Assembly: GCA_030710605.1 (NCBI GenBank)
Contig: CP092868.1
Location: forward strand, 25,157,337 to 25,221,336
DNA: 64,000 bases
Direction of reading: 5' to 3'
DNA from: Cordylochernes scorpioides
Lineage: Eukaryota > Arthropoda > Arachnida > Pseudoscorpiones > Chernetidae
Part shown: one piece after another, positions 3,507-59,325 of the stretch
How positions within the stretch are numbered: the first letter of the stretch is position 1
Layout of the letters: every line of letters starts with the position of its first letter
Translations under genes and position numbers: made by a program
The notes under the pieces: generated by a model
What the model was told of the DNA's origin: nothing
The model's database searches: none
The model's input: the letters and a program-made list of their open reading frames with translations, nothing else

Positions 3507-3708
3507 TTGATATACATATATTTATATTATGGACAAAATAATTTTTGTAAAATATAGGTGTGAATATTTTGAAAATTAACAATAACGCCTATTTTATATT
3601 TCAAATAATTTTAAAATATAAAATAGGCGTTATTGTTAATTTTCAAAATATTCACACCTATATTTTACAAAAATTATTTTATCCATAATATAAATATATG
3701 TATATCAA
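3507..3708. repeat. foldback palindrome, 92-bp arms
   Basis: Arms 3507-3598 and 3615-3708 are inverted copies with one visible mismatch and a loop of about 16 bp. No coding potential. Confidence 0.9.
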
Positions 3709-3715
3709 TTTTTTT

Positions 3716-3890
3716 CTCCCCATTGAATATAACAAAATATTTTTAAAAAAACTTAATGTTGTTGACGTTATGTGGCGCTGAGTTTGTTGTTGACACACTT
3801 TAAAATGTTATAACACCTTGATAAAGGTTGGCGCTCAGCCAACTGAATTATTGGTAAAATAAATGATTTTTTGATCCAAAATATGCCTTT
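3716..3890 (+). mobile_element. PLE terminus with degenerate hammerhead
   Basis: Contains CCTTGATAAAGGTTGGCG, then CAGCCAACTGAATTATTGG, the same unit as the tandem array at 32190-32700. It reads as a hammerhead core in which CUGAUGA has become UUGAUAA, so the catalytic G8 is lost; stem II (GTTGGC/GCCAAC) is kept. Probably dead. Confidence 0.6.
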
Positions 3891-3940
3891 TTAATTAAAT
3901 AAATACCTTTATATTATGATGCATTAGCGCGCCATCTGTT

Positions 3941-4118
3941 ATCATAATTCGAAACTATTATAGACGCTTATGATTCTTTTTTAAAATAAACAATTTCTAC
4001 TGTCCTTACTGCAATGAAAAAAAATATAAAATACTATTTTTTCATTGCAGTAAGGACAGTAGAAATTGTTTATTTTAAAAAAGAATCATAAGCGTCTATA
4101 ATAGTTTCGAATTATGAT
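3941..4118. repeat. foldback palindrome holding a structured-element end
   Basis: Arms 3941-4021 and 4038-4118 match as inverted repeats of about 80 bp. Each arm contains TTCTACTGTCCTTACTGCAA, the outer end of the structured family described at 31846-32061, so two truncated ends face each other. Confidence 0.9.
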
Positions 4119-5221: not shown

Positions 5222-6035
5222 AACCTAATTTATTCTAAATAAAGTTAACACAAAGCAATAACGCGCCATCTATAATTATGTGGCGTAATAAATAATTTAT
5301 ATTTAAATTAATTTAATTATTCACAGAAAATATTTAAAACAGATTATTCTATTAAGAAAAAGGCATCTTTTTATCGTGAAACTGAAAGTTACTGATGGCT
5401 TGCGCCCTCTATCGGAATAAATATAAACTTTTCATTTACTTTTAATTATTCCAGAATTTGCCAAATACCCATTCTTGATTAATCAAGAAAAGCTAACCAC
5501 GTACGCGTTTTGGGCTGTTGGCCCTCATCAGCGTGGTGCAAGCTGTACCTCAACGACCAAAAACTGGCCATTCCGATGGATGGCGGAAACCATCAGCAAC
5601 TTTCAGTTGCACTATAAGGAGATGCCTTTTTCTTAATTTATGCACCTTATCTCAGTACAATATCACATTTGTACTTCTTTTCACATTGTGTCGCGGTCTC
5701 ACGCAATTCTGGTCTTAACTACCCGTTTAATGATTTTTCAGGATGCCTGAATGACCCGTTCTTTGGTCGTTGAGGTACAGCTTGCACCACGCTGATGAGG
5801 GCCAACAGCCCGTAACGCGTCCGTGGTTAGCTTTTCTTGATTAACCAAGAAGGGATATTTGGCCAATTCTGGAATAATTAAAAATCAACGAGAATAGTTG
5901 ATATTTACTCCGATAGATGGCGCAAGCCATCAGCAATTTTCAGATGCACGATAAGGATATGCCTTTTTACTTTCTTAATTTATGTACCTTATCCCAGTAC
6001 AATATCACATTTGTGCTATTTTTTCATATATATAT
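5222..6035. mobile_element. inverted pair of H1-type PLE termini with mutated hammerheads
   Basis: A minus-oriented unit (about 5370-5660) and a plus-oriented unit (about 5665-6035) of the H1 family. Shared marks are a TTGATTAATCAAGAA palindrome, GATAGATGGCGCAAGCCATC and a GAGATGCC-type end. The hammerhead on the minus strand at 5493-5537 has CAAAAC in place of CGAAAC (G12 lost). The plus one at 5764-5813 has GTAAC in place of GAAAC (A13 lost). Both are probably inactive. Confidence 0.75.
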
Positions 6036-7075: not shown

Positions 7076-7163
7076 TAATATTTTAGTAAATTAAATTTTA
7101 TTGCCCTCTATCGTTAAAATTTTACACAAATAAATTTACTGGCAATGCGTTTCTTTTTTAAAT

Positions 7164-7372
7164 CTCTACAGACCTTACTGCAATGATATGATTTAATGAA
7201 TGAGAGGGCTTCGCTCATCAGTAGTGAACCCTCTCAGCGGTTTCGCCAAATTAATCTCTAGACCGCTCTACTATTGTATTGGACTGGTTTTGTTATATAC
7301 CCAGCATTTTCTATGGAAGGCAGCTAAATGGTGTTTAGTGAACTATGGACATAAGCTTATAGGTCTGTAGAG
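7164..7372 (-). ncRNA. structured hammerhead-core element, copy A
   Basis: Ends CTCTACAGACCT and AGGTCTGTAGAG are perfect inverted repeats. Inside (minus strand) are AGCGGTC, TTGGCGAAACCGCT, GAGAGGG, CTGATGAG and CCCTCTC in that order. Stem II is broken here (GCGAA instead of GCCAA). See the copy at 31846-32061 for the model. Confidence 0.6.
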
Positions 7373-7531
7373 GTACATACATATAAATTTCAAGGTATTG
7401 CATCGAGCAAAGCTCTTCCGCGCAAAACATGTTTTCATAACCATTATATATTAGTAAATTAAATTTTATTGCCCTCTATCGTTAAAATTTTACACAAATA
7501 AATTTACTGGCAATGCGTTTCTTTTTTAAAT

Positions 7532-7740
7532 CTCTACAGACCTTACTGCAATGATATGATTTAATGAATGAGAGGGCTTGGCTCATCAGTAGTGAACCCT
7601 CTCAGCGGTTTCGCCAAATTAATCTCTAGACCGCTCTACTATTGTATTGGACTGGTTTTGTTATATACCCTGCATTTTCTATGGAAGGCAGCTAAATGGT
7701 GTTTAGTGAACTATGGACATAAGCTTATAGGTCTGTAGAG
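7532..7740 (-). ncRNA. structured hammerhead-core element, copy B
   Basis: Same as copy A but with GCCAA restored, so TTGGC/GCCAA pairs fully. Terminal helix CTCTACAGACCT/AGGTCTGTAGAG and inner helix GAGAGGG/CCCTCTC are perfect. Confidence 0.65.
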
Positions 7741-7857
7741 GTACATACATATAATTGTAATGTACATGTAATTTACTAATATATAATGGTTATGAAAACA
7801 TGTTTTGCGCGGAAGAGCTTTGCTCGATGCAATACCTTGAAATTTATATGTATGTAC

Positions 7858-8066
7858 CTCTACAGACCTATAAGCTTATGTCCATAGTTCACTAAACACC
7901 ATTTAGCTGCCTTCCATAGAAAATGCAGGGTATATAACAAAACCAGTCCAATACAATAGTAGAGCGGTCTAGAGATTAATTTGGCGAAACCGCTGAGAGG
8001 GTTCACTACTGATGAGCCAAGCCCTCTCATTCATTAAATCATATCATTGCAGTAAGGTCTGTAGAG
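7858..8066 (+). ncRNA. structured hammerhead-core element, copy C (inverted)
   Basis: Inverted copy of B, opposite strand. The pair B plus C makes a long hairpin from about 7447 to 8108. Confidence 0.65.
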
Positions 8067-8350
8067 ATTTAAAAAAGAAACGCATTGCCAGTAAATTTAT
8101 TTGTGTAAAATTTTAATATTTTATAAAAATAAATACAAAGCATGTTACAGTATACTTATGTATGTGTATATTGTACTTGATATATGTTCAATTAAAACCA
8201 TTGTTATACTGGGAGAATCCTGTATGGGACTTGTCACTAATAGACAATTTGACAATTTAAACAATTTTATTGATTCTTTTAATCAAATGTTACAAAGGTG
8301 GAAAAATATAAAGTGTAGGGGAATATATATATAGTTGTGTACAAATATCT

Positions 8351-12309: not shown

Positions 12310-13175
12310 ATGATGTAAAGTTTCACTATTAGAGCTCTAATACTGTATTGGATCATTCTGCTTATATATGTTACACTGAAGGGTGGAATCTTAGAAATGG
12401 TATTTAAGTAAACTATGGACATAAGCTTTTAGGACAGATTACATAAATAAATTTGCATCGAGCAATGCTCTTCCGCAAACAACTGATGAGCCAAGCCCTC
12501 CCAATATATTTTTTCATCGAAGTAAGGCCAGTAGAAGTTTGTATTGTGTATATATTGTAACATGAATGGCAAGATACTAGAGTAAAGTTGGGGAAAGAGA
12601 GGTGGACTCTAGCTGCCATGTGGCAGGAGCCAAAACACCATTCCTGTGTGGGGAAGGACAGAGTCTGGTTACATCTGCGGTGAGGAGAAGACGTGGCGAC
12701 TTGTCTCCTGGCGTGTGAATGATCCTACAAGACGGTGCCAGGAGAGCCTGACATCGGAGCGGTCTACAAGGCGGTGTAGTCCAGGCTGTACAGTGTGGAG
12801 CGGAACACAAGAGTGACATCCACGGCGCCAAGGATTCTTCTGACGGGAAGGTTGAAGACAAGCCCAACTCATTGTATTCCTTCTGTTAAGTGAGATACAA
12901 TAAAGCGCTAACTTTAGCTGCAATCCCTTCGAACTCACGTGTGTATATTTGTGGCATCCTGAGTAGACAAAGTACAGCGTCTGGGTACGTCGTAACAATA
13001 TATTTGCATCGAGGAAGGCTCTTCCGCAAACAACTGATGAGCCGAGCCCTCCCAATATATTTTTAATCGCAGTAAGGATAATAGAAGTTTGTATTGTATA
13101 TATATATTTGCATCGAACAATGTTTTTCCTCAAACAGCAAACTTTTCATCGCAGTAAGGACAGTAGAAGTTTATA
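12310..13175. mobile_element. tandem remnants of the structured family, split by a solo LTR
   Basis: 12317-12435 matches the outer half of the structured element (CTAATACTGTATTGGATCAT, ACATAAGCTTTTAGGACAG). Then about 110-bp pieces with GCATCGAGCAATGCTCTTCC, CTGATGAGCC and GTAAGG..AGTAGAAGTT repeat head-to-tail on both sides of the LTR at 12556-12997. Confidence 0.7.
12556..12997 (+). repeat. solo LTR, 442 bp
   Basis: TGTAACATGAAT to CGTCGTAACA with a 4-bp duplication ATAT on both sides (12552-12555, 12998-13001). An AATAAA at about 12899 supports plus orientation. It contains TGACATCCACGGCGCCAA, a segment also found at 34623, 35058 and 35153. Confidence 0.8.
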
Positions 13176-19745: not shown

Positions 19746-20095
19746 TCAACACCTGACCCACTTATCTTTTATTTTTTCTATTGTGTTTTCATGTGTTAAG
19801 CGAATTAACGCAAATTTGGCCTTAAATACCCATTTCTTGGTTTTTCGGGAAGCCACTGGGACCAAAAATCTTTTTGGTCGCAGTGGTTACAGCCTACTCC
19901 ACGCTGACGAGCGCCAACAGCGCGAAACGCGTTCGCGGATGGCTTTTCTTGATTTATCAAGAAATTGGGTTGGCCAAATATCACGGAGCAAGTTAAATAA
20001 ACGTTTAGTTTATTTTTGCTCCACTAGATGGCTCTCTGCCATCTAAAATGCACATGTGCTCGTGGTCAAGAAATGCCATCTTTATTTTTAATATA
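19746..20095 (+). mobile_element. H3-type PLE terminus
   Basis: Contains TGGCCTTAAATACCCATTTC, a hammerhead (19890-19945), a TTGATTTATCAAGAA palindrome and CCACTAGATGGCTCTCT. Related to the minus-strand copy at 33680-33964. Confidence 0.7.
19890..19945 (+). ncRNA. hammerhead ribozyme, type I (H3), nearly intact
   Basis: CTGACGA at 19904-19910, stem II CGC..GCG, GAAAC, tiny stem III closed by GCGT, and cleavage predicted after T19933. Stem I CCACG pairs with CGCGG with one mismatch. Core bases needed for catalysis are present (position 7 may vary). Confidence 0.65.
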
Positions 20096-20345: not shown

Positions 20346-21202
20346 TGATTTTAAGAGTTTAATTTCTACAAAAAGGCTTCTTCTTATCGAGCAACTGAAA
20401 GTTGCTGATGGCTTGCGCCATCTATCGGAATAAATATCAACTATTCTCGTTGATTTTTAATTATTCCAGAATTGGCCAAATACCCATTCTTGATTAATCA
20501 AGAAAAGCTAACCACGGCCGCGTTTCGGGCTGTTGGTCCTCATCAGCGTGGTGCAAGCTGTACCTCAACGACCAAAAAATTGGTCATTAAGGCATCCTGA
20601 AAAATCATGGAACGGGTAGTTAAGGCCAGAATTGCGTGAGAACGCTACACAATGTGAAAAAATAGTACAAATGTAATATTGTACTGGGATAAGGTGCATA
20701 AAATAAGAAAAAGGCTTCTTCTTATCGAGCAACTGAAAGATGCTGATGGCTTGTGCCATCTATCGGAATAAATATCAACTATTCTCGTTGATTTTTAATT
20801 ATTCCAGAATTGGCCAAATACCCATTCTTGAGTATTACATTTGTACTATTTTTTCACATTGTGTAGCGTTCTCACGCAATTCTGGCCTTAACTACCCGTT
20901 CCATGATTTTTCAGGATGCCTTAATGACCAATTTTTTGGTCGTTGAGGTACAGCTTGCACCACGCTGATGAGGGCCAACAGCCCGAAACGCGTCCGTGGT
21001 TAGCTTTTCTTGATTAATCAAGAATGGGTATTTGGCCAATTCTGGAATAATTAAAAATCAACGAGAATAGTTGATATTTATTCCGATAGATGGCGCAAGC
21101 CATCAGCACCTTTCAGTTGCTCGATAAGAAGAAGCCTTTTTCTTAATTTATGCACCTTATCCCAGTACAATATTACATTTGTACTATTTTTTCATATATA
21201 AA
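20346..21202. mobile_element. inverted pair of H1-type PLE termini
   Basis: The minus-oriented unit up to about 20700 has a hammerhead at 20505-20555 with GGC in place of GUC at the cut site. The plus-oriented unit (20835-21202) has the intact ribozyme below. Both share GATTAATCAAGAA, the CCGATAGATGGCGC motif and GAGATG/GAAGAAGCC ends. Confidence 0.8.
20951..21007 (+). ncRNA. hammerhead ribozyme, type I (H1), intact core
   Basis: Stem I CCACG (20960-20964) pairs with CGTGG (20995-20999). CUGAUGA spans 20965-20971, stem II GGGC/GCCC has loop CAACA, GAAA spans 20985-20988, stem III is AC/GU with a GC loop, and H17 is C20994 with the predicted cut between 20994 and 20995. Every universally conserved base is present. 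Short stem III ribozymes of this kind are known in PLE ends. Confidence 0.9.
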
Positions 21203-27264: not shown

Positions 27265-27792
27265 TTATCAAGGTATCCTCTCCCGTCAAAATAGACGTTA
27301 AAACTAGACGCCATCTATTGACCGTCCCCGCAAACTAGCGGCCTCGGGTCGGTGACAAAGCCACAGCACCAGCTTTGGCAACCTGAGAAGCCTCCACCTA
27401 GAGACCATGGTTTCGGGCTAATGGCCCTCATCAGCCTAGGGCGGGCTTTATTCCATGAGATCCACACGGGATCTAATTATCTCTTTAGATCAAAATCCTC
27501 GCGGCAAAAATTTCCATGTATATTTTAGCCATAGATTTGGCCCAGCCACTTTACCAGCAAAACACCTCTTTGGTAAATTGTCAAGATTCCATTAGATCCC
27601 GTGTGGATCTCATGGAATAAAGTCCGCCCTAGACTGACGAGGGCCATTAGCCAGAAACCATGGTCTCTAGGTAGACACTTCTCAGTTTTCCAAAGCTGGT
27701 GTTGTGGCTTTGTCACCGACCCGAGGCCGCTAGTTTGCGGTGACGGTTAATAGATGGCATCTAGTTTTGACTTCTATTTTGACGGGAGAGGT
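27265..27792. mobile_element. H2-type PLE foldback
   Basis: Minus-oriented arm (27265-27510) and plus-oriented arm (27570-27792) share CTCTCCCGTCAAAAT, GCCATCTATTGACCGTC, CGGTGACAAAGCCAC and the ribozyme. The loop contains CCATAGATTTGGCCCAGCCA. The right-arm ribozyme has GCCAGAAAC in place of GCCCGAAAC, which breaks stem II closure. Confidence 0.8.
27385..27445 (-). ncRNA. hammerhead ribozyme, type I (H2), intact core
   Basis: Minus strand: stem I CCTAGG/TCTAGG (one G-U), CUGAUGA (27434-27428), stem II GGGC..GCCC with ATTA-containing loop, GAAA, stem III ACC/GGU with AU loop, H17 = C at 27403, then UCUAGG. All invariant bases kept. It differs from H1 in every helix, so it is an independent family. 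Confidence 0.88.
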
Positions 27793-28200
27793 GGCCTTTA
27801 TCTTTATTGGACTTTTCTTATACTTATGATAATTCATTTAATTCATTTCGAGGGCCCTATTTGAGAATTTTGTATCTTCAAAATGATTCGGTCTCAGGCA
27901 ATTCTGGCCTTGACTCCCCGTTTCATGATTTTTCAGGATGCCTGAATGACCCGTTCTTTGGTCGTTGAGGTACAGCTTGCACCACGCTGATGAGGGCCAA
28001 CAGCCCGAAACACGTCCGTGGTTAGCTTTTCTTGATTAATCAAGAATGGGTATTTGGCCAATTCAGGAATAATTAAAAATCAATGAGAATAGTTGATATT
28101 TATTCCGATAAATGGCGCAAGCCATGGATATGCCTTTTTCATAATTTATGCACCTTATCCCAGTACAATATCACATTTGTACTATTTTTCACAAAGAGTA
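27793..28200 (+). mobile_element. H1-type PLE terminus
   Basis: Plus-oriented unit with ATGATTTTTCAGGATGCCTG, ribozyme, TTGATTAATCAAGAA and GATAAATGGCGCAAGCC. It ends near a run that matches other H1 ends (CAGTACAATATCACATTTGT). Confidence 0.75.
27970..28030 (+). ncRNA. hammerhead ribozyme, type I (H1), intact core
   Basis: CCACG (27982-27986), CUGAUGA (27987-27993), GGGC/GCCC stem II, GAAA (28007-28010), stem III AC/GU with AC loop, predicted cut after C28016, and CGTGG following. The single change from the 20951 copy is in the stem III loop. Confidence 0.88.
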
Positions 28201-29118: not shown

Positions 29119-29743
29119 TGCCAAGTGGAAAATTAGGGAAGACCAACTTCGGGATGAGACAACAATTTATTTCAGACAAGAACAAACTATGAGTGATAAA
29201 CAAAAAATAAGCAAAAGAGGGAAGTGTACAGAGTATAGCAAAATGTAAACATAAAAAATAATACTTTGTTACATAGCTCCTTCCCTATGGGAGCTGTGAC
29301 CCACAGCTATCAATTATTGTAGTTACTGACATGGATCTGACGTGCTTCTGCCAAGGATTCCATCGAAGTCTTGGAACTTTGTCCCTAGTACCTTTGCGTC
29401 CTTTTTCTTGCGGCTTTGTCGTCGTATCGTCTATAGAGACATCTTCATCTTCGAGGGAAGTCTTGGCTTTTACACGTCGGTGGAATCCTGGAGCCAGTTT
29501 CCAAAAATGTAGATCACAGCACCCATGACCTCTAGGTCTTTTCGGCGATCTTCAGTTTGTCTTCCCTAATTTTCCCAGCACCTCCACCAAAATGCCACGT
29601 GGAAAATTAGGGAAGACTAACTTCGGGATGAGACAACATTTTATTTCAGACAAGAACAAACTATGAGTGATAAACAAAAGATAAGCAATGAGGGAAGTGA
29701 ACAGAGTGCAAAATGTAAACATAAAAAATAATACTTTCTTACA
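29119..29743 (-). mobile_element. TRIM (miniature LTR retrotransposon)
   Basis: LTRs 29119-29273 and 29593-29743 begin TGCCA(A/C)GTGGAAAATTAG and end GTTACA/CTTACA, flanked by ATAT on both sides. On the minus strand the primer site TGGTGGAGGTGCTGGG follows the 5' LTR after TTT and equals the complement of a metazoan tRNA-Ala 3' end with CCA. A purine tract AGGGAAGGAGCTA precedes the 3' LTR. The 319-bp interior has no retroviral-type protein. Solo LTRs of this family lie at 39145-39322 and 58191-58369. Confidence 0.88.
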
Positions 29744-29759
29744 ATATTAATACAAAACA

Positions 29760-30415
29760 ATAACACGCCATCTATATATAACAAATGAAGACATTAAGAC
29801 GCGAATGTTTCTTTTCTCAAATGAATCCAACTTCTACTCTCCTTACATACAATATTTCTGATGGAAAATTTACCGGGAGGAAATTAATCCATAGAAGCAT
29901 AGGGCGCCTCTCCCGTCAAAATAAACGTCAAAAACTGACGCCATCTATTGACCGTCGCCGCAACTAGCGGCCTCGGGTCGGTGACAAAGCCACAACACCA
30001 GCTTTGGCAAACTGAGAAGCGTCCATCTAGAGACCATGGTTTCTGGCTAATAGCCCTCGTCAGTTTTTGACGGTAGAGGCGCCCTATGCTTCTATGGATT
30101 AATTTCTTCCTGGCAAATTTTCCATCTATATTCTAGCCATAGATTTGGCCCAGCCACTTTTGCAGCAAAACACCTCTTTGTCAGATTGTGAATATTCCAT
30201 TAGATCTTGCGTGAATATCTCATGGAATAAAGTCCGCCCTAGACTGACGAAGGCCATTAGCCAGAAACCATGGTCTCTAGGTGGACGCTTCTCAGTTTGC
30301 CAAAGCTGGTGTTGTGGCTTTGTCACCGACCCGAGGCCGCTAGTTGCGACGACGGTCAATAGATGGCGTCAGTTTTTGACGTTTATTTTGACGGGAGAGG
30401 CGCCCTATGCTTATA
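29760..30415. mobile_element. structured-family start cut by an H2 PLE foldback
   Basis: 29762-29865 reads ACGCCATCTATATATAACAA through CGAATGTTTCTTTTCTC to CTTCTACTCTCCTTAC, the start of a structured-family copy. It is then cut by two H2 units, minus (29905-30080) and plus (30120-30410). Both ribozymes have GCCAGAAAC and are likely inactive; the left unit also loses stem I. Confidence 0.65.
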
Positions 30416-30823: not shown

Positions 30824-31026
30824 CTGCGATGAAAAAAATATTGGGAAGGCTTGACTCATCAGTGGTGAACCCTCCCAGCGGTTTCACCAATTCAATCTAC
30901 CAGACCGCTTCTTTAGAGCTCTAATACTGTATTGGATCATTCTGTTTATATATGTTACACTGAAGGGTGGAATCTTAGAAATGGTATTTAAGTAAACTAT
31001 GGACATAAGCTTTTAGGACAGTAGAA
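30824..31026 (-). ncRNA. structured hammerhead-core element, copy D
   Basis: Outer helix ACTGTCCTT/AGGACAGTAG is imperfect. Core order as in 31846-32061: AGCGGTC, TGGTAGA, TTGGTGAAACCGCT, GGGAGGG, TTCACCA, CTGATGAG, TCAAG. Stem II pairs through G-U (TTGGT/GTCAA). Stem I has one A-C mismatch. Confidence 0.6.
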
Positions 31027-31640: not shown

Positions 31641-31800
31641 TATATTGGATCAAAATATCATTTATTTTACCTATATTTCAGTTGGCTGAACGCCAAATGT
31701 TTTCTTCCCGTTGAATATAGACAAAAAATATTTTAAACCTTAATTCTATTGACGTTATGTGACGCTGAGTTTGTTATTGACACATATTAATATAAAATGA
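31641..31800 (-). mobile_element. PLE terminus of the 134-bp family, minus orientation
   Basis: TTGGATCAAAATATCATTTA, then TTTCAGTTGGCTGAACGCCA, in inverse orientation to 32190-32700. The two flank the structured copy at 31846-32061. Confidence 0.6.
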
Positions 31801-31845
31801 AAGAATTTAAAAGCACGAATGTTTCTTTTATACATAATACAAACT

Positions 31846-32061
31846 TCTACTGTCCTTACTGCGATGAAAAATATATTGGGAGGGCTTGGCTCATCAGTGG
31901 TGAACCCTCCCAGCGGTTTCGCCAATTTAATCCACCAGACCGCTTCTCAAAGCTCTAATACTGTATTGGACGATTCTGCTTATATACGCAGCACTGAAGG
32001 ATGGAATATCAGAAATGGTTTTCAAGAGAACTATGGACATAAGCTTATAGGACAGTAGAAT
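31846..32061 (-). ncRNA. structured hammerhead-core element, reference copy E
   Basis: Outer helix TTCTACTGTCCT (31846-31857) with AGGACAGTAGAA (32050-32061). On the minus strand, in order: AGCGGU (31945-31940), C, UGGUGGA (31938-31932), UUAAA, UUGGC (31926-31922), GAA, ACCGCU (31918-31913), GGGAGGG (31912-31906), UUCACCA (31905-31899), CUGAUGA (31898-31892), GCCAA (31891-31887), G, CCCUCCC (31885-31879). Pairs: AGCGGU/ACCGCU, UGGUGGA/UUCACCA, UUGGC/GCCAA, GGGAGGG/CCCUCCC. These give the three helices and core (UC, CUGAUGA, GAAA) of a hammerhead, but strands run III-I-II-III-I-II, not a circular permutation. The plus strand may instead be the sense strand; an open frame over it looks incidental. 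Confidence 0.6.
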
Positions 32062-32189
32062 TACATTCAAATATTTGCATCGAGCAATGCTCTTCCGCAA
32101 ACAATAAATACAAGGCCAGTTAGGCATAAATTGTCACAAAGCAATAACGCGCCATCTATACATATAAAATAAAATGTCAATATGACACA

Positions 32190-32700
32190 TTAAATATGTT
32201 ATAATACCTTGATAAAGGTTGGCGTTCAGCCAACTGAAATATTGGTAAAATAAATGATATTTTGATCCATTTATATGCCTGTTTAATTAAAGATTTATTT
32301 ATGGATTGCTCTATTTTAAAAACATTAATATGTTATAATACCTTGATAAAGGTTGGCGTTCAGCCAACTGAAATATTGGTAAAATAAATGATATTTTGAT
32401 CCATTTATATGCCTTTTTAATTAAAGATTTATTTATGGATTGCTCTATTTTCAAAACATTAATATGTTATAATACCTTGATAAAGGTTGGCGTTCAGCCA
32501 ACTAAAATATTGGTAAAATAAATGATATTTTGTTCCAATATATGTCTTTTTAATTAAAGATTTATTTATGGATTGCTCTATTTTCAAAACATTAATATGT
32601 TATAATACCTTGATGAAGTTTGGCATTCAGCCAGCTGAAATATTGGTAAAATAAATGATATTTTGATCCAATATATGTCTTTTAAATTAAATATTACAAT
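32190..32700 (+). repeat. 134-bp tandem array of PLE termini, four units
   Basis: CCTTGATAAAGGTTGGCG starts at 32207, 32341 and 32475, and a variant CCTTGATGAAGTTTGGC lies near 32608. Each unit carries GTTGGC/GCCAAC stem II and TGAAATATTGG. Three units lose G8 of the hammerhead (UUGAUAA); the fourth keeps it (UUGAUGA) but still lacks C3. Head-to-tail termini are usual for PLEs. Confidence 0.85.
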
Positions 32701-33679: not shown

Positions 33680-33964
33680 AAAAATGGCATATCCTGACCA
33701 AGAGCAGAGGTGCTTTACAGAAGGCAGAGCGCCATCTGGTGGAACAGAAATCAACTAAACATTGATTTAGCCTGTTCCCTGATATTTGGCCAAACCAATT
33801 TCTTGATAAATCAAGAAAAGCCATCCACGAACGCGTTTCGCGCTTTTTGGCGCTCGTCAGCGTGGAGTAGGCTGTACCAATGCGACCAAAAATATTTTTT
33901 GGTTCCAGTGGCTTCCTGAAAAACCAAGAAATGGGTATTTAAGGCCAAACTTGCGTAAAAAAAA
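33680..33964 (-). mobile_element. H3-type PLE terminus
   Basis: AGAGCGCCATCTGGTGG, TTGATAAATCAAGAA, ribozyme, and TGGGTATTTAAGGCCAAACT, matching 19746-20095 in reverse. Confidence 0.75.
33821..33870 (-). ncRNA. hammerhead ribozyme, type I (H3), intact core
   Basis: Minus strand: CCACG (33865-33861), CUGACGA (33860-33854), stem II GCGC/GCGC, GAAAC (33839-33835), tiny stem III, H17 = U at 33830, and CGTGG (33829-33825) closing stem I perfectly. It keeps the bases that 19890-19945 has partly lost in stem I. Confidence 0.82.
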
Positions 33965-34230
33965 AACTTTGGCCTTAACTACCCGTTTCATGATTTTTCA
34001 GGATGCCTTAATGACCAATTTTTTGGTCGTTGAGGTACAGCTTGCACCACGCTGATGAGGGCCAACAGCCCGAAACGCGTCCGTGATTAGCTTTTCTTGA
34101 TTAATCAAGAATGGGTATTTGGCCAATTCTGGAATAATTAAAAATCAACGAGAATAGTTGATATTTATTCCGATAGATGGCGCCAGCCATCAGCAAATTT
34201 CAGTTGCACGATAAGGAGATGCCTTTTTCT
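33965..34230 (+). mobile_element. H1-type PLE terminus, ribozyme with weakened stem I
   Basis: Ribozyme at about 34040-34095 has all core bases, but stem I CCACG faces CGTGA, costing one pair. Then TTGATTAATCAAGAA and GATAGATGGCGCCAGCC. Confidence 0.7.
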
Positions 34231-40199: not shown

Positions 40200-40433
40200 T
40201 TACTGCAAGGCCAGGAGAGCGCGATATGCATCTGGAAGTTCTATTTTACGGTTAATGCTGTTATGTCTGTGGGATTCTATTGACTCGAGAACTAATCGTT
40301 GGTGCTGGTTATGAATGTGTCTGTAATGTATGGTGGGGTGGTTGGTGTTAAAAGAATGGCCAGTATTGAGTGTGTGCTGATAAAGGAGGAACCTGGTGTC
40401 CTGATTGGAGATGTTTCGAGAATGCTCAGACAT
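40200..40433 (-). pseudogene. GIY-YIG C-terminal fragment in the inverted 5' end
   Basis: Begins MSEHSRNISNQDTRFLLYQH and ends RKIELPDAYRALLALQ. Inverted duplicate of the C-terminal part of 42241-42633, a few residues different. The GIY strand continues in minus sense to about 40504 (CEQCSATYIGETGR equivalent). Confidence 0.8.
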
Positions 40434-40504
40434 TCTGATGGCAATGGATCTACCTGTCTCGCCAATGTATGTGGCAGAGCATTGCTCACACGAGACAGAG
40501 TAGA

Positions 40505-41335
40505 CCGCGCCATCATCAGTGAGTTAACTGCCATGAATCCCGCTCCACATTTTACAATGTGTTCCTTTGATGTAACCTCCCTTTACCTCAGTCTTCCCCA
40601 CAGTCTCATCACCGATAGTCTGGAACGGTTCCTTAGATCACAGAATGTAGATCCCCATACAACTTCTTCTATAACACAACTGACCAAACTCTGCTTAAAC
40701 ATGAACTCCTTCACATTCCTTAAAGATCACTACAGACAGATTAAAGGCTCCCCAATGGGCAGCCCTCTATCCTCTATTGTTGCAGAAATAGCCATGTCCG
40801 AAATAGACCACTGGATTACCCGTACCCTCCCCACAGATATACAAATATGGCGCCGATATATTGATGACGTTTTTTGCATATGCAGAAACGGCCAGGAGAG
40901 CACCATACTTGCAGCCCTCAATAGTTATAACCCCAACATCTCCTTCACTATGGAAATAGAGTCAAACCAGGTCATCCCATTCCTTGACATACTAATAATA
41001 CGTACCGCATCCACATTCCACACCACAGTTTATTATAAAAAACAATGTCCCCCCAGTTATACCCATTTCAATTCACACTGTCCTATTTCCCATAAAATTA
41101 ACATAATAAAAACTCTCACTAAAAGAATATTTACTCACTGCTCACTCGATATATTTAAAGAAACTGAGAGAGATCTCATCATATCGCACCTTTCTAAAGC
41201 ATCATTTCCACTTGAATATATCAACAGATATTCATATACACCTGGTCCCTCCAATCTACCTATAATTTATATATCATTATGTTTCCTGCCCTACTCCCCC
41301 TCCTCAGTCGATATAGCTAGAAGCCTCAAGACATA
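40505..41335 (+). pseudogene. PLE reverse transcriptase, N-terminally truncated
   Basis: Motif A FDVTSLYLSLPH, motif B GSPMGSPLSSIVAEIAM, motif C YIDDVFCI (catalytic DD) and the following IPFLDILI are in order; then a thumb-like region with CPISHKINIIKTL. These are PLE-specific wordings. The first RT motifs are replaced by the inverted terminus, and the end meets the mariner at 41336. It would copy the element RNA at a nicked or telomeric 3' end in an intact element. Confidence 0.85.
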
Positions 41336-42240
41336 CGAGGTGTGTTCAAAAGGTATCGCGACTTTTGAATTTTCGCGGGTTACGTATATTCGAATTTCGA
41401 TCTTTTTGTGGCTTTATGTTGGTACTCATGTCTCTCACCTATGCCGACAAGCTCGGCCATTTTGAATGTTCACTTGATTGTTGACAGCTGCTTTGCTTGC
41501 AGGTGTTTTGGATCGTCTTCGATATTTACCTATTAAAAAAATGGATCAAAGAACCTGTATCAAATTTTGTGTGAAAAACGAAATTAAGTGCGCCGATGCA
41601 TTCCGAATGTTGACTGTGGCATACGGAGAAGCTACATTGGACCGAAGCAACGTTTATCGGTGGTACAAAATGTTCTCAGAAGGCCGAGAATATGTGAACG
41701 ACGAAGAGCGTGCCGGACGCCCGAGCACTTAAACAACAGACGAAAATATTAATGAAGTGGAGAAAATGATATTGGCCAATCGTCGAATCACCGTTAGAGA
41801 AGTTGCTGAGGACCTAAACATATCGATTGGCTCGTGCCATTCGATTTTTATCAATGATTTGGGCATGAGACGGGTCGCCGCGAAATTCGTACCAAAATTG
41901 CTCAATTGCAACCAAAAACAGCATCGCATGGACATTGCTAATGAGATGTTGGACTCTGTCCGCGACGACCCAAATTTACTCCAGAGGGTCATAACTGGTG
42001 ACGAAGCGTGGGTTTATGGTTATGACGTGGAAACCAAAGCTCAATCATCTCAATGGAAGCTGCCGCACGAACCAAGACCGAAAAAAGCGCGCCAAGTTCG
42101 GTCGAATGTGAAAGTTTTGCTGACAGTTTTCTTCGGTTGCAGGGGCGTGGTGCATCATGAGTTCTTGCCACAGGGTAGAAAGGTCAATAAGGAATATTAC
42201 CTGCAAGTTATGCGCAATTTGCGCGAAGCAATCCGCCAGA
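41336..42240 (+). mobile_element. mariner transposon, 3' truncated, inside the PLE
   Basis: Left end CGAGGTGTGTTCAAAAGGTA. Transposase from ATG 41541: a helix-turn-helix region (VYRWYKMFSEGRE), an in-frame TAA at 41730 and catalytic D1 in ITGDEAWVYGYD. Sequence stops after NLREAIRQK, before D2 and D3, where PLE coding resumes. The right terminal repeat is missing. Different mariner subfamily from 13887-15005. Confidence 0.85.
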
Positions 42241-42633
42241 AACAGAACTCCTCCAACCTGCTCACATCCTTCCGTCACCCATACTAAATCGCATGCCCCC
42301 CCAGATCCCCTCCATTCTGCTGGCGCGGTCTACTCTGTCTCGTGTGAGCAATGCTCTGCCACATATATTGGCGAGACAGGTAGATCCATTGCCATCAGAA
42401 TGTCTGAGCATTCTCGAAACATCTCCAATCAGGACACCAGGTCCCTCCTTTATCAGCACACACTCAATACTGGCCATTCTTTTAACACCAACCACCCCAC
42501 CATACATTACAGACACATTCATAACCAGCACCAACGATTAGTTCTCGAGTCAATAGAATCCCACAGACATAACAGCATTAACCGTAAAATAGAACTTCCA
42601 GATGCAAATCGTGCTCTCCTGGCCTTGCAGTAA
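42241..42633 (+). pseudogene. PLE GIY-YIG endonuclease domain
   Basis: AVYSVSCEQCSATYIGETGRS gives the GxY...YIG block with the CxxC insertion, R at IRMSEHSR, then HTLNTGHSF and NSINRKIELP, to a TAA at 42633. Complete for this domain except for upstream linkage, because the mariner separates it from the RT. Confidence 0.85.
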
Positions 42634-45849: not shown

Positions 45850-46500
45850 CGGCCCCAGCGAGGGAAGCGGTGCCGGCGAAAGAAGCGGTGCCCTCGGGAG
45901 AAACGATACCGCGAGAGAAGTGTTCCCGGCGAGAGGAATGGTCCCGGCGAGAGAAGTGGTCCCGGCGAGAGAAGTGGTCCCGGCGAGAGGAGTGGTCCCG
46001 GCGAGAGGAATGGTCCCGGCGAGAGAAGCAGTACCGGCGAGAGAAGCGGTCCCGGCGAGAGAAGTGGTCCCGGCGAGAGTAGTGGTCCCGGCGAGAGAAG
46101 TGGTCCCGGCGAGAGGAGTGGTCCCGGCGAGAGGAATGGTCCCGGCGAGAGGAATGGTCCTGGCGAGAGGAGTGGTCTCGGCGAGAGAGGTGGTACCAGC
46201 ATAAGAGGCGGTGCCGGCATGAGAAGCGCCTCCGGCACGAAAAGCGGTACCGATATAAGAAGCGTAATCGTCATAAGAGGCTGAGTCAGCATGAGAGGTG
46301 CCTCCGGCGAGAGAAGCTGCTCCGGCGTGAGAAGCATAACCGGCGAAAGGGGAGGCTCCGGCGAGAGGGACGGCTCCGGAGAAAGGGGCGGCTCCGGCGA
46401 GAAAGATTGGCTCTGGCGAGATAGGCGGCTCCGGCGAGAAAGGCGATTCCAGCGAGATGGGCAGTTCCAGCAAAAGAGGCGGCACCAGCGAGAAGCGTGA
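45850..46500 (+). repeat. 18-bp minisatellite, copy 2
   Basis: As copy 1 but one unit shorter and with a one-base loss (CGATACCGCGAG), so the frame differs from copy 1. No selection for one frame is apparent. Confidence 0.92.
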
Positions 46501-56599: not shown

Positions 56600-57035
56600 T
56601 ATTTAGGCACGGGCGGTTTCACCAATTTAATCTACCAGACCACTTCTTAGAGATCTAATACTGTATTGGATCATTCTGTTTATATATGCTACACTGAAGG
56701 GTGGAATCTTTGAAATGGTATTTAAGTAAACTATACACATAAGCTTTTAGGACAGTAGAATTATGTATAATTATTTGCATCGAGCAATGTTTTTCCACAA
56801 ACAAGATTCCATTTCTGAGATTCCACCCTTCAGTGTAGCATATATAATTAGAATGATCCAATACAGTAATAGAGATCTAAAGAAGCGGTCTGGTAGATTA
56901 AATTGGTGAAACTGTTGGAAGGGTTTACCACTGATGAGCCAAGCCTTCCCAATATATTTTTCATTGCAGTAAGGACAGTATAAGTTTGATTTATTTGTGA
57001 GAAGAAACATTCGCGTCTTAATGTCTTCATTCGTT
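56600..57035. mobile_element. inverted pair of structured-family copies F and G
   Basis: Copy F (minus, 56600-56770) lacks the CTGATGAG half. Copy G (plus, about 56800-56990) is complete in the core: AGCGGU (56884-56889), C, UGGUAGA, UUGGU, GAA, ACUGUU, GGAAGGG, UUUACCA, CUGAUGA (56931-56937), GCCAA, G, CCUUCCC. Here stem I has A-U where copy E has G-C, and the inner helix has A-U where E has G-C. Confidence 0.7.
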
Positions 57036-57039
57036 ATAT

Positions 57040-57911: not shown

Positions 57912-58124
57912 TTCTACTGTCCTAAAAGCTTATGTCCATAGTTTGCTTAAATACCATTTCTAAGATTCCACCCTTCAGTGTAACATATATAAACAGAATG
58001 ATCCGATACAGTATTAGAGTTCTAAAGAAGCGGTCTGGTAGATTAAAAAAATTGGTGAAACTGGGTTCACCACTGATGTGCCAAGACCTCCCACTATTTT
58101 GTCATCGCAGTAAGGACAGTAGAA
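57912..58124 (+). ncRNA. structured hammerhead-core element, copy H (degraded)
   Basis: Ends TTCTACTGTCCT and AGGACAGTAGAA pair perfectly. Inside, AAACTGGGTTCACC lacks most of the GGGAGGG arm and CTGATGAG is CTGATGTG. The longest flanks of the family are seen here: AGATGGCGTGTTATTG at 57822 and CGAATG-like TTCTTT to 58185. Confidence 0.55.
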
Positions 58125-58764: not shown

Positions 58765-59325
58765 TTATGAAAAAATAGTACAAATGTGATATTGTACTGG
58801 GATAAGTTGCATAAATTATGAAAAAGGCATCTCTTTATCGTGAAACTGAAAGTTGCCGATGGCTTGTGCCATCTATCGGAATAAATATCAACTATTCTCG
58901 TTGATTTTTAATTATTCCAGAATTAGCCAAATATCCATTCTTGATTAATCAAGAAAAGCTAAACACGGACGCGTTTCGGGCTGTTGGCCCTCATCAGCGT
59001 GGTGCAAGCTGTACCTCAACGACCATAAAAACAGGTCATTAAGGCATCCTGAAAAATCATGAAACGGGTAGTTAAGGCCAGAATTGTGTGAGACCGCGAC
59101 ACAATGTGAAAAAAATAGTACAAATGTGATATTGTACTGGGATAAGGTGCATACATTTTTGAAAAAAAAGGCATCTCCTTATTGTACAACTGAAAGTCTG
59201 TGGTTAGCTTTTCTTGATTAATCAAGAATGGGTATTTGGCCAATTCTGGAATAATTAATAAGATGACGCAAGCCATCAGAAACTTTCAGTTGCACGATAA
59301 GGAGATGCCTTTTTCATAATTAAAT
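58765..59325. mobile_element. inverted pair of H1-type PLE termini
   Basis: The minus unit (58765-59110) has a ribozyme near 58965-59010 (minus) with a complete core (CUGAUGA, GGGC/GCCC, GAAAC, GUC) and stem I CACG/CGUG, one pair short. The plus unit (59190-59325) lost its ribozyme. Confidence 0.72.

Follow-up and report, generated by a model that had tools for sequence, protein, structure and literature searches.

Hammerhead ribozymes can be split into three blocks, S, G and C, and Eckert et al. 2023 (PMC10085705) describe a non-circularly permuted type, SGC, in which the blocks follow one another in the order S-G-C and an extra helix ties stems I and II together. They show with disruptive and compensatory mutants that SGC RNAs cleave at the predicted site, and they predict 583 sequences; the motifs of the study are almost all metatranscriptomic, and the authors found none of type SGC in a known organism's genome. 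The authors note that in a few of their sequences stem III and the fourth helix are joined through ends that are widely separated in the classic crystal structure (PMC10085705). Metazoan retrozymes, as presented by Cervera and de la Pena 2020 (PMC7229834), are non-LTR elements of 150–450 bp tandem repeats that carry type I hammerheads and are expressed as linear and circular RNA. They lack LTRs, PBS and PPT, and their target-site duplications, where they occur, exceed 4 bp. With the S-G-C order itself known, what is new here is its occurrence in an animal genome, that of the pseudoscorpion Cordylochernes scorpioides, at high copy number and in a mobile-looking repeat.

Within the 64-kb window (the whole stretch of DNA analysed, whose numbering is used throughout), the minus strand from 31944 to 31878 holds all conserved hammerhead nucleotides and the three core helices, their strands running III, I, II, III, I, II as read from the sequence (Table 1). 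From 31944 onward come the stem III 3′ strand, C17, the stem I 5′ strand, a 5-nt linker and the stem II 3′ strand; then GAAA, the stem III 5′ strand, GGGAGGG and the stem I 3′ strand; and last CUGAUGA, the stem II 5′ strand, a single G and CCCUCCC. Stem III is AGCGGU/ACCGCU. Position 17 (H) may be A, C or U. The first-pass annotation had placed the motifs and the pairings of stems III, I and II, helix IV and a closing helix here on the minus strand, and all are found where it put them. Its claim that the strand order is no circular permutation of the ribozyme and that the helices cross is borne out by the sequence; S-G-C is not a circular permutation of S-C-G, and the locus falls outside the classical types I–III. 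On the minus strand UC precedes the predicted cut, which by analogy with the published constructs would fall after C17, between 31938 and 31937 (PMC10085705). Rfam returned no hammerhead match at the locus at gathering or relaxed thresholds. What did not stand is the statement that this order is not known for the ribozyme; PMC10085705 had already published and tested it as the type-SGC hammerhead.

Table 1. Positions of the core strands, the surrounding element, its relatives and hammerhead-like matches in the window.
Feature	Position	Strand	Remarks
Block S: stem III 3′ strand AGCGGU + C17	31938..31944	-	sequence
Stem I 5′ strand UGGUGGA	31931..31937	-	pairs with 31898-31904; second pair G-C (family A) to A-U (family B)
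Stem II 3′ strand UUGGC	31921..31925	-	pairs with 31886-31890; C-G in place of U-A in family C
Block G: GAA + A15.1 + stem III 5′ strand GAAACCGCU	31912..31920	-	
Helix IV 5′ strand GGGAGGG	31905..31911	-	abuts stem III, 0-nt spacer
Stem I 3′ strand UUCACCA	31898..31904	-	
Block C: CUGAUGA	31891..31897	-	
Stem II 5′ strand GCCAA	31886..31890	-	
Helix IV 3′ strand CCCUCCC	31878..31884	-	
Closing helix 5′ strand	32049..32060	-	12-nt perfect inverted repeat with 31845-31856; two U-A/A-U compensatory pairs, A vs B
Closing helix 3′ strand	31845..31856	-	12-nt perfect inverted repeat with 32049-32060
Whole inserted element	31794..32182	- (ribozyme strand)	389 bp: about one unit plus short overlap
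Paralogous empty site	3706..3899		without the 31794-32182 stretch
Left copy, imperfect ~16-bp target-site duplication	31778..31793		overlap of two flank alignments at 3791-3806
Right copy, imperfect target-site duplication	32183..32198		
Fragment with tail-to-head unit junction, family A	29740..29860	-	read by eye
Family A core, second in window	30843..30909	-	
Family A core, third in window	56884..56950	+	
Family A core, decayed	58029..58092	+	A9 replaced by U; III and IV partly deleted
Family B, two tandem units	7078..7757	-	period 368 bp; cores 7202-7267 and 7570-7635
Family B unit, head-to-head inverted	7809..8116	+	core 7963-8028
Sub-threshold HH9 matches, plus strand	20949-21014, 27971-28036, 34036-34101, 19888-19953	+	Rfam
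Sub-threshold HH9 matches, minus strand	33810-33876, 27380-27450, 58948-59013	-	Rfam

The likeness to published SGC hammerheads (the HRIMA-1 motif and SGC variants of PMC10085705) extends to the S-G-C order, the conserved core nucleotides, stems I, II and III, the fourth helix tying I and II, and a short linker between stems I and II, although this linker is 5 nt in the commonest family A core and typically 3 in that study. Stems III and IV abut with a 0-nt spacer in the most frequent core of all three families (A, B and C, see below), as they do in some published cases, and published constructs of the same layout cleave (PMC10085705). The zero-nucleotide link is sterically puzzling, both by our own estimate and by the crystal-structure statement of PMC10085705. 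Unlike the SGC sequences of that study, the present ones lie in an animal genome, in a mobile-looking repeat with tens of thousands of copies. The open-access papers listed as citing or resembling that study (preprints and most subscription papers fall outside the collection searched) deal with structure-comparison tools, the glmS ribozyme and an unrelated phage, with no report of an SGC ribozyme in an animal among them, and hammerhead ribozymes in arachnids were not mentioned among the open-access matches listed.

Folding predictions for the 216-nt domain place helix IV at a pairing probability of ~1 and helix IV, the inner five pairs of stem III and the closing helix together at 0.95–1.0; within stem III the inner five pairs reach 0.95–0.99 and the outermost pair 0.37. 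Because these hairpins are predicted so strongly, the pseudoknot would need only loop-loop pairing. In 400,000 trials that left the hairpins intact and shuffled the letters of the loops, complete pairing of both stem I and stem II arose 4 times.

A strict descriptor (stem I ≥5, II ≥4 and III ≥5 bp, within 120 nt, all six block orders accepted) found two places in the 64-kb window, both in S-G-C order and both copies of the focal repeat. Dinucleotide-shuffled windows gave 0 matches in 150 shuffles and, in a second run of 2,500, five matches over all orders, one of them S-G-C. A looser descriptor recovered six cores of the focal repeat in the window and two further matches that are probably chance. 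The strict descriptor had no match in 570,720 bp drawn from 74 loci of viral and prokaryotic collections. Pattern scans of the viral collection with four core patterns gave 0, 19, 0 and 0 matches, and with an 18-nt flank word 2; one scan of the prokaryotic genome collection gave 53. With a relaxed descriptor, an SGC core was found around the match in none of 72 viral or prokaryotic loci. Neither flank-word locus has a strict-descriptor match, and one viral locus of the two (L073) looked on reading like chance.

Genome-wide, the core is abundant. In the assembly of 2,619,359,433 bases (2.62 Gb, 24 contigs), the pattern GCGGTC-N14,26-GAAACCGC-N14,26-CTGATGA has 33,660 exact matches (17,014 + 16,646), and a second pattern with the outer base of stem II changed has 12,849 (6,365 + 6,484); the reversed control gave 0 for each. 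Two of 100 listed second-pattern matches begin with GCGGTC and could fit both; the two patterns are nearly disjoint, and the SGC-order cores sum to near 46,000. Since exact patterns miss diverged copies, the family must be at least that large. A DNA query with family B returned nothing, but that search skips very common words and carries no information on rarity. Three families can be told apart among the fetched copies: A, which includes the focal element; B, at 7202-8028 in the window; and C, which has A17 and stem II as CUGGC/GCCAG. Family shares are not genome-wide estimates, as loci L105–L164 all come from the start of contig 1. The conserved core nucleotides (CUGANGA, GAAA, U16.1-H17) are intact in six of the seven window copies, and the seventh carries A9 to U. 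Among 29 distinct ungapped copies, between 21 and 29 retain any given core position; the minimum falls on position 17, for which A and U are likewise valid as H.

To assess the helices, we combined shuffle controls on aligned copies with targeted genome counts. The large set comprised 168 full-length cores from the window and loci L075–L164, partial matches dropped and some copies counted twice where loci overlap, of which 68 are distinct. Loci were chosen by likeness to the focal element (L075–L104), with most of stem III fixed (L105–L134), or with a changed outer base of stem II (L135–L164). Across the 68 distinct cores, paired cells number 408/462 in stem I, 314/340 in stem II, 426/471 in helix IV and 386/406 in stem III, the last with part of the loci chosen with most of stem III fixed. 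Double-changed, still-paired cells total 48 against a shuffle mean of 17.6, and 0 of 1,000 shuffles, which take no account of relatedness, reach that number. By helix (III, I, II, IV), the counts are 1, 11, 23 and 13, the shuffled means 0.6, 3.0, 9.1 and 5.0, and the shuffles reaching the observed count 463, 0, 0 and 0 of 1,000. Pairing survives in only 113 of the 258 changed cells, which means that many copies are free to decay. Stem I pair 5 is mostly broken (paired in 25 of 67 distinct cores). In the window this pair is G-C in the focal copy, A-U in the copy at 56884 and unpaired in four of six distinct rows as aligned.

Among the seven window copies of families A and B, pair 2 of stem I and pair 2 of helix IV both change from G-C to A-U. 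The covariation score of these copies is equalled by 2 of 500 shuffles, and two of the five shuffle measures are unexceptional (177 and 492 of 500 as high). In the closing helix, two pairs are switched A-U/U-A; its score is equalled by 3 of 500 shuffles and two other measures by 461 of 500.

In the targeted tests one base was changed and its partner left free, so the bias of locus choice does not apply; the first 100 matches listed, on contig 1, were counted by eye. For the stem II outer pair, 94 of the 100 are still paired (93 C-G, 1 G-U) and 6 unpaired, mainly one family-level event, since the rows of one family are related by descent. For helix IV pair 2, the search for A/C-type copies with the G changed gave 3,226 matches (1,569 + 1,657; control 0), and the 100 listed comprise 58 A-U, 34 A.C and 8 U.C. 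Changing stem III pair 3 gave 869 + 862 matches, the 100 listed being 6 U-A, 1 A-U, 58 U.G and 35 unpaired. Stems I, II and IV are supported by a small number of clear compensatory events, and the closing helix by compensatory changes among families; the family-level compensations are few independent events. Stem III is backed by conservation, without convincing compensation. The crossing helices, the crux of the observation, are among those that the alignments support. Covariation of the three core helices, the check that the first-pass annotation had proposed, thus came out positive for stems I and II, while stem III yielded one cell and 7 of 100 targeted rows; the fourth helix that it had drawn, GGGAGGG/CCCUCCC, is upheld by its pairing, its double changes and the compensated majority of listed rows.

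The repeat is larger than the 216-bp element first delimited. Homology continues past both ends, and a paralogue at an empty site, which lacks the inserted stretch, sets the insertion borders of this one insertion 52 and 121 bp outside the 216-bp ends (Table 1). Judged from these alignments, the 216 bp make up the interior of a larger unit, roughly 370 nt long, which occurs in tandem arrays. The head-to-tail period is 368 bp in the window and 371–373 in other A and C copies; family B rows in the genome listing have periods of 368 and 378.

We mapped unit ends in 66 deduplicated family A fragments of ≥150 nt (loci L075–L134), a sample in which some loci may be segmental duplicates. The 3′ ends lie in unit positions 260–312 in 57 of the 66, the 5′ ends in 6. 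Seventeen fragments exceed 380 nt, that is, over one unit, the longest reaching 965 nt, and 49 measure ≤380 nt. One fragment starts near the cleavage site, and 34 have a head-to-head inverted neighbour. With 3′ ends clustered, 5′ ends scattered and some copies spanning several units, the pattern fits priming at a preferred place on circular or multimeric RNA. A search for target-site duplications in 31 isolated copies (duplicates kept) gave a weak result: a shared flank word of ≥10 occurs in 6 copies versus 65 of 922 with swapped flanks, the means being 6.1 and 5.9.

Head-to-head inverted pairs of SGC units also lie at 7482-8116, 12333-12552 and 56613-57039 and at many other loci; they might arise through twin priming, through template switching or from some trait of the reverse transcriptase. 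The word AAGCTTATGTCCATAG at 32031-32046 (minus strand), near the 5′ strand of the closing helix, occurs at eight places in families A and B at ≤3 mismatches and is identical at seven of them. A 134-bp satellite array (32187-32695) adjoins the element, which seems to be inserted in a relative of that satellite. About 70 bp from the empty site, a small palindrome at 3970-4089 is built from the element's 3′ end, present twice in opposite orientations; Rfam gives it a miRNA match below the gathering score. We considered TATATAA, which precedes the ribozyme by 32–43 nt in all seven window copies, as a promoter and set it aside; among fetched loci, 38 of 46 A-type copies, 4 of 6 B-type copies and 0 of 11 of family C have it at a single shared spacing.

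Taken together, the repeat is probably a retroelement of the retrozyme-like, non-autonomous kind; its units measure ~370 nt, and their RNA carries a predicted type-SGC hammerhead. We say retrozyme-like because its size, tandem layout and hammerhead content match and its hammerhead is of type SGC. Like the metazoan retrozymes of PMC7229834, it has units within ~150–450 bp, single or in tandem, a hammerhead per unit and presumed mobilisation in trans; unlike theirs, its hammerhead is not the classical type I, and by sequence it looks like an animal retrozyme with SGC in that place. In such an element, the loops of hairpins III and IV would pair through stems I and II and rebuild an ordinary hammerhead core, which would cleave the RNA just past C17 (in family C, A17) and release unit-length molecules from multimeric transcripts. 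A host ligase would presumably circularise this RNA, a reverse transcriptase acting in trans could copy it from a preferred 3′ position, sometimes for more than one round, and the copied unit would insert at new sites. Cleavage, circular RNA and the moving enzyme are the steps that we infer.

Several other readings bear on this model. Hairpins III and IV abut within a unit and turn their loops away from each other; for this reason the core might form mainly, or even only, between units, with the III-loop of one unit kissing the IV-loop of the next within a dimer or a tandem transcript. Tandem transcripts would then be cut and monomer circles left unable to recut themselves, which would solve how circles escape their own ribozyme, a problem noted for animal retrozymes in PMC7229834. 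The missing spacer in the commonest A, B and C cores, the near-certain prediction of helix IV, the occurrence of tandem units and the distance between the joined ends in the classic crystal structure (stated in PMC10085705) all speak for such assembly. Published SGC constructs, however, cut as single units during transcription (PMC10085705), and we estimate that fraying of two to three stem III pairs, of which the outermost is weakly predicted, might bridge the gap. We hold a core formed mainly between units, and one confined to neighbouring units with monomer circles shielded from re-cutting, each to be a minority possibility. The fold could also be a relic, active in an ancestor and now passive cargo of the repeat. 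Many individual copies have clearly decayed, with broken pairs or core changes such as that at A9 in the copy at 58029, and fewer than half of the changed cells are still paired; yet the commonest core is intact in each of the three families, compensation is seen in B (stem I, helix IV, closing helix), in C (stem II) and again in helix IV of some A/C-type copies, and exact cores number in the tens of thousands. A passive relic is accordingly unlikely, and for the family as a whole the earlier suggestion of a relic of a rearranged ribozyme is improbable in view of the compensated variants and the copy number. The in-trans arrangement that the first-pass annotation also raised keeps some plausibility.

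Two further readings dispense with the SGC core. A foldback or MITE-like DNA element, with the closing helix as terminal repeats around two plain, non-catalytic hairpins, would account for the 12-bp inverted termini, for the two hairpins that RNAalifold gives without pseudoknots and for the frequent head-to-head pairs (34/66). It is nonetheless very unlikely: homology runs past both termini to the borders seen at the empty site, the distribution of ends (3′ clustered, 5′ scattered) and the copies of several units agree with reverse transcription, and plain hairpins leave the hammerhead core and the I/II loop pairing unexplained. Tandem arrays would likewise permit a classical-order hammerhead spread over two or three units (G from the first, say, joining S and C from the second), but this would require a stem III with strands ~370 nt apart where a local hairpin III is strongly predicted, most sampled fragments (49/66) are at most about one unit long, and helix IV conservation would go unexplained. 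We consider it scarcely credible.

If the retrozyme-like reading is correct, a non-circularly permuted RNA enzyme published in 2023 from hostless environmental sequences gains a nameable animal host, and the SGC hammerhead a very-high-copy genomic form and a plausible function in a mobile element's life cycle. Its thousands of natural variants would allow real covariation and activity maps and could show how the fold copes with the zero-length III–IV link. Hammerhead surveys limited to the three classical topologies would then be missing an abundant class. The origin of the permutation would also become testable in a genome that holds classical hammerhead repeats as well. Seven sub-threshold Rfam HH9 matches in the window (Table 1) read as classical type I hammerheads, three of the alignments having been seen, and a type I descriptor (classical C-G-S order, stem III of 2–3 bp) finds four places in the window and 0 matches in 300 shuffles. 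Type I hammerheads thus occur in at least one other repeat family here. These repeats and the SGC element are short repeats with a hammerhead core in the same genome, and sequence searches of the window revealed no similarity between them. Similar motifs lie near 5792 (+), 5531 (-) and 20546 (-).

The window also contains a gypsy-type open frame with at most 98% identity to annotated Cordylochernes scorpioides proteins. A reverse-transcriptase frame at 40296-42633 (+; Pfam RVT_1), Penelope-like by eye, is a candidate mover of the hammerhead repeats; a mariner-type transposase frame lies beside it at 41733-42287.
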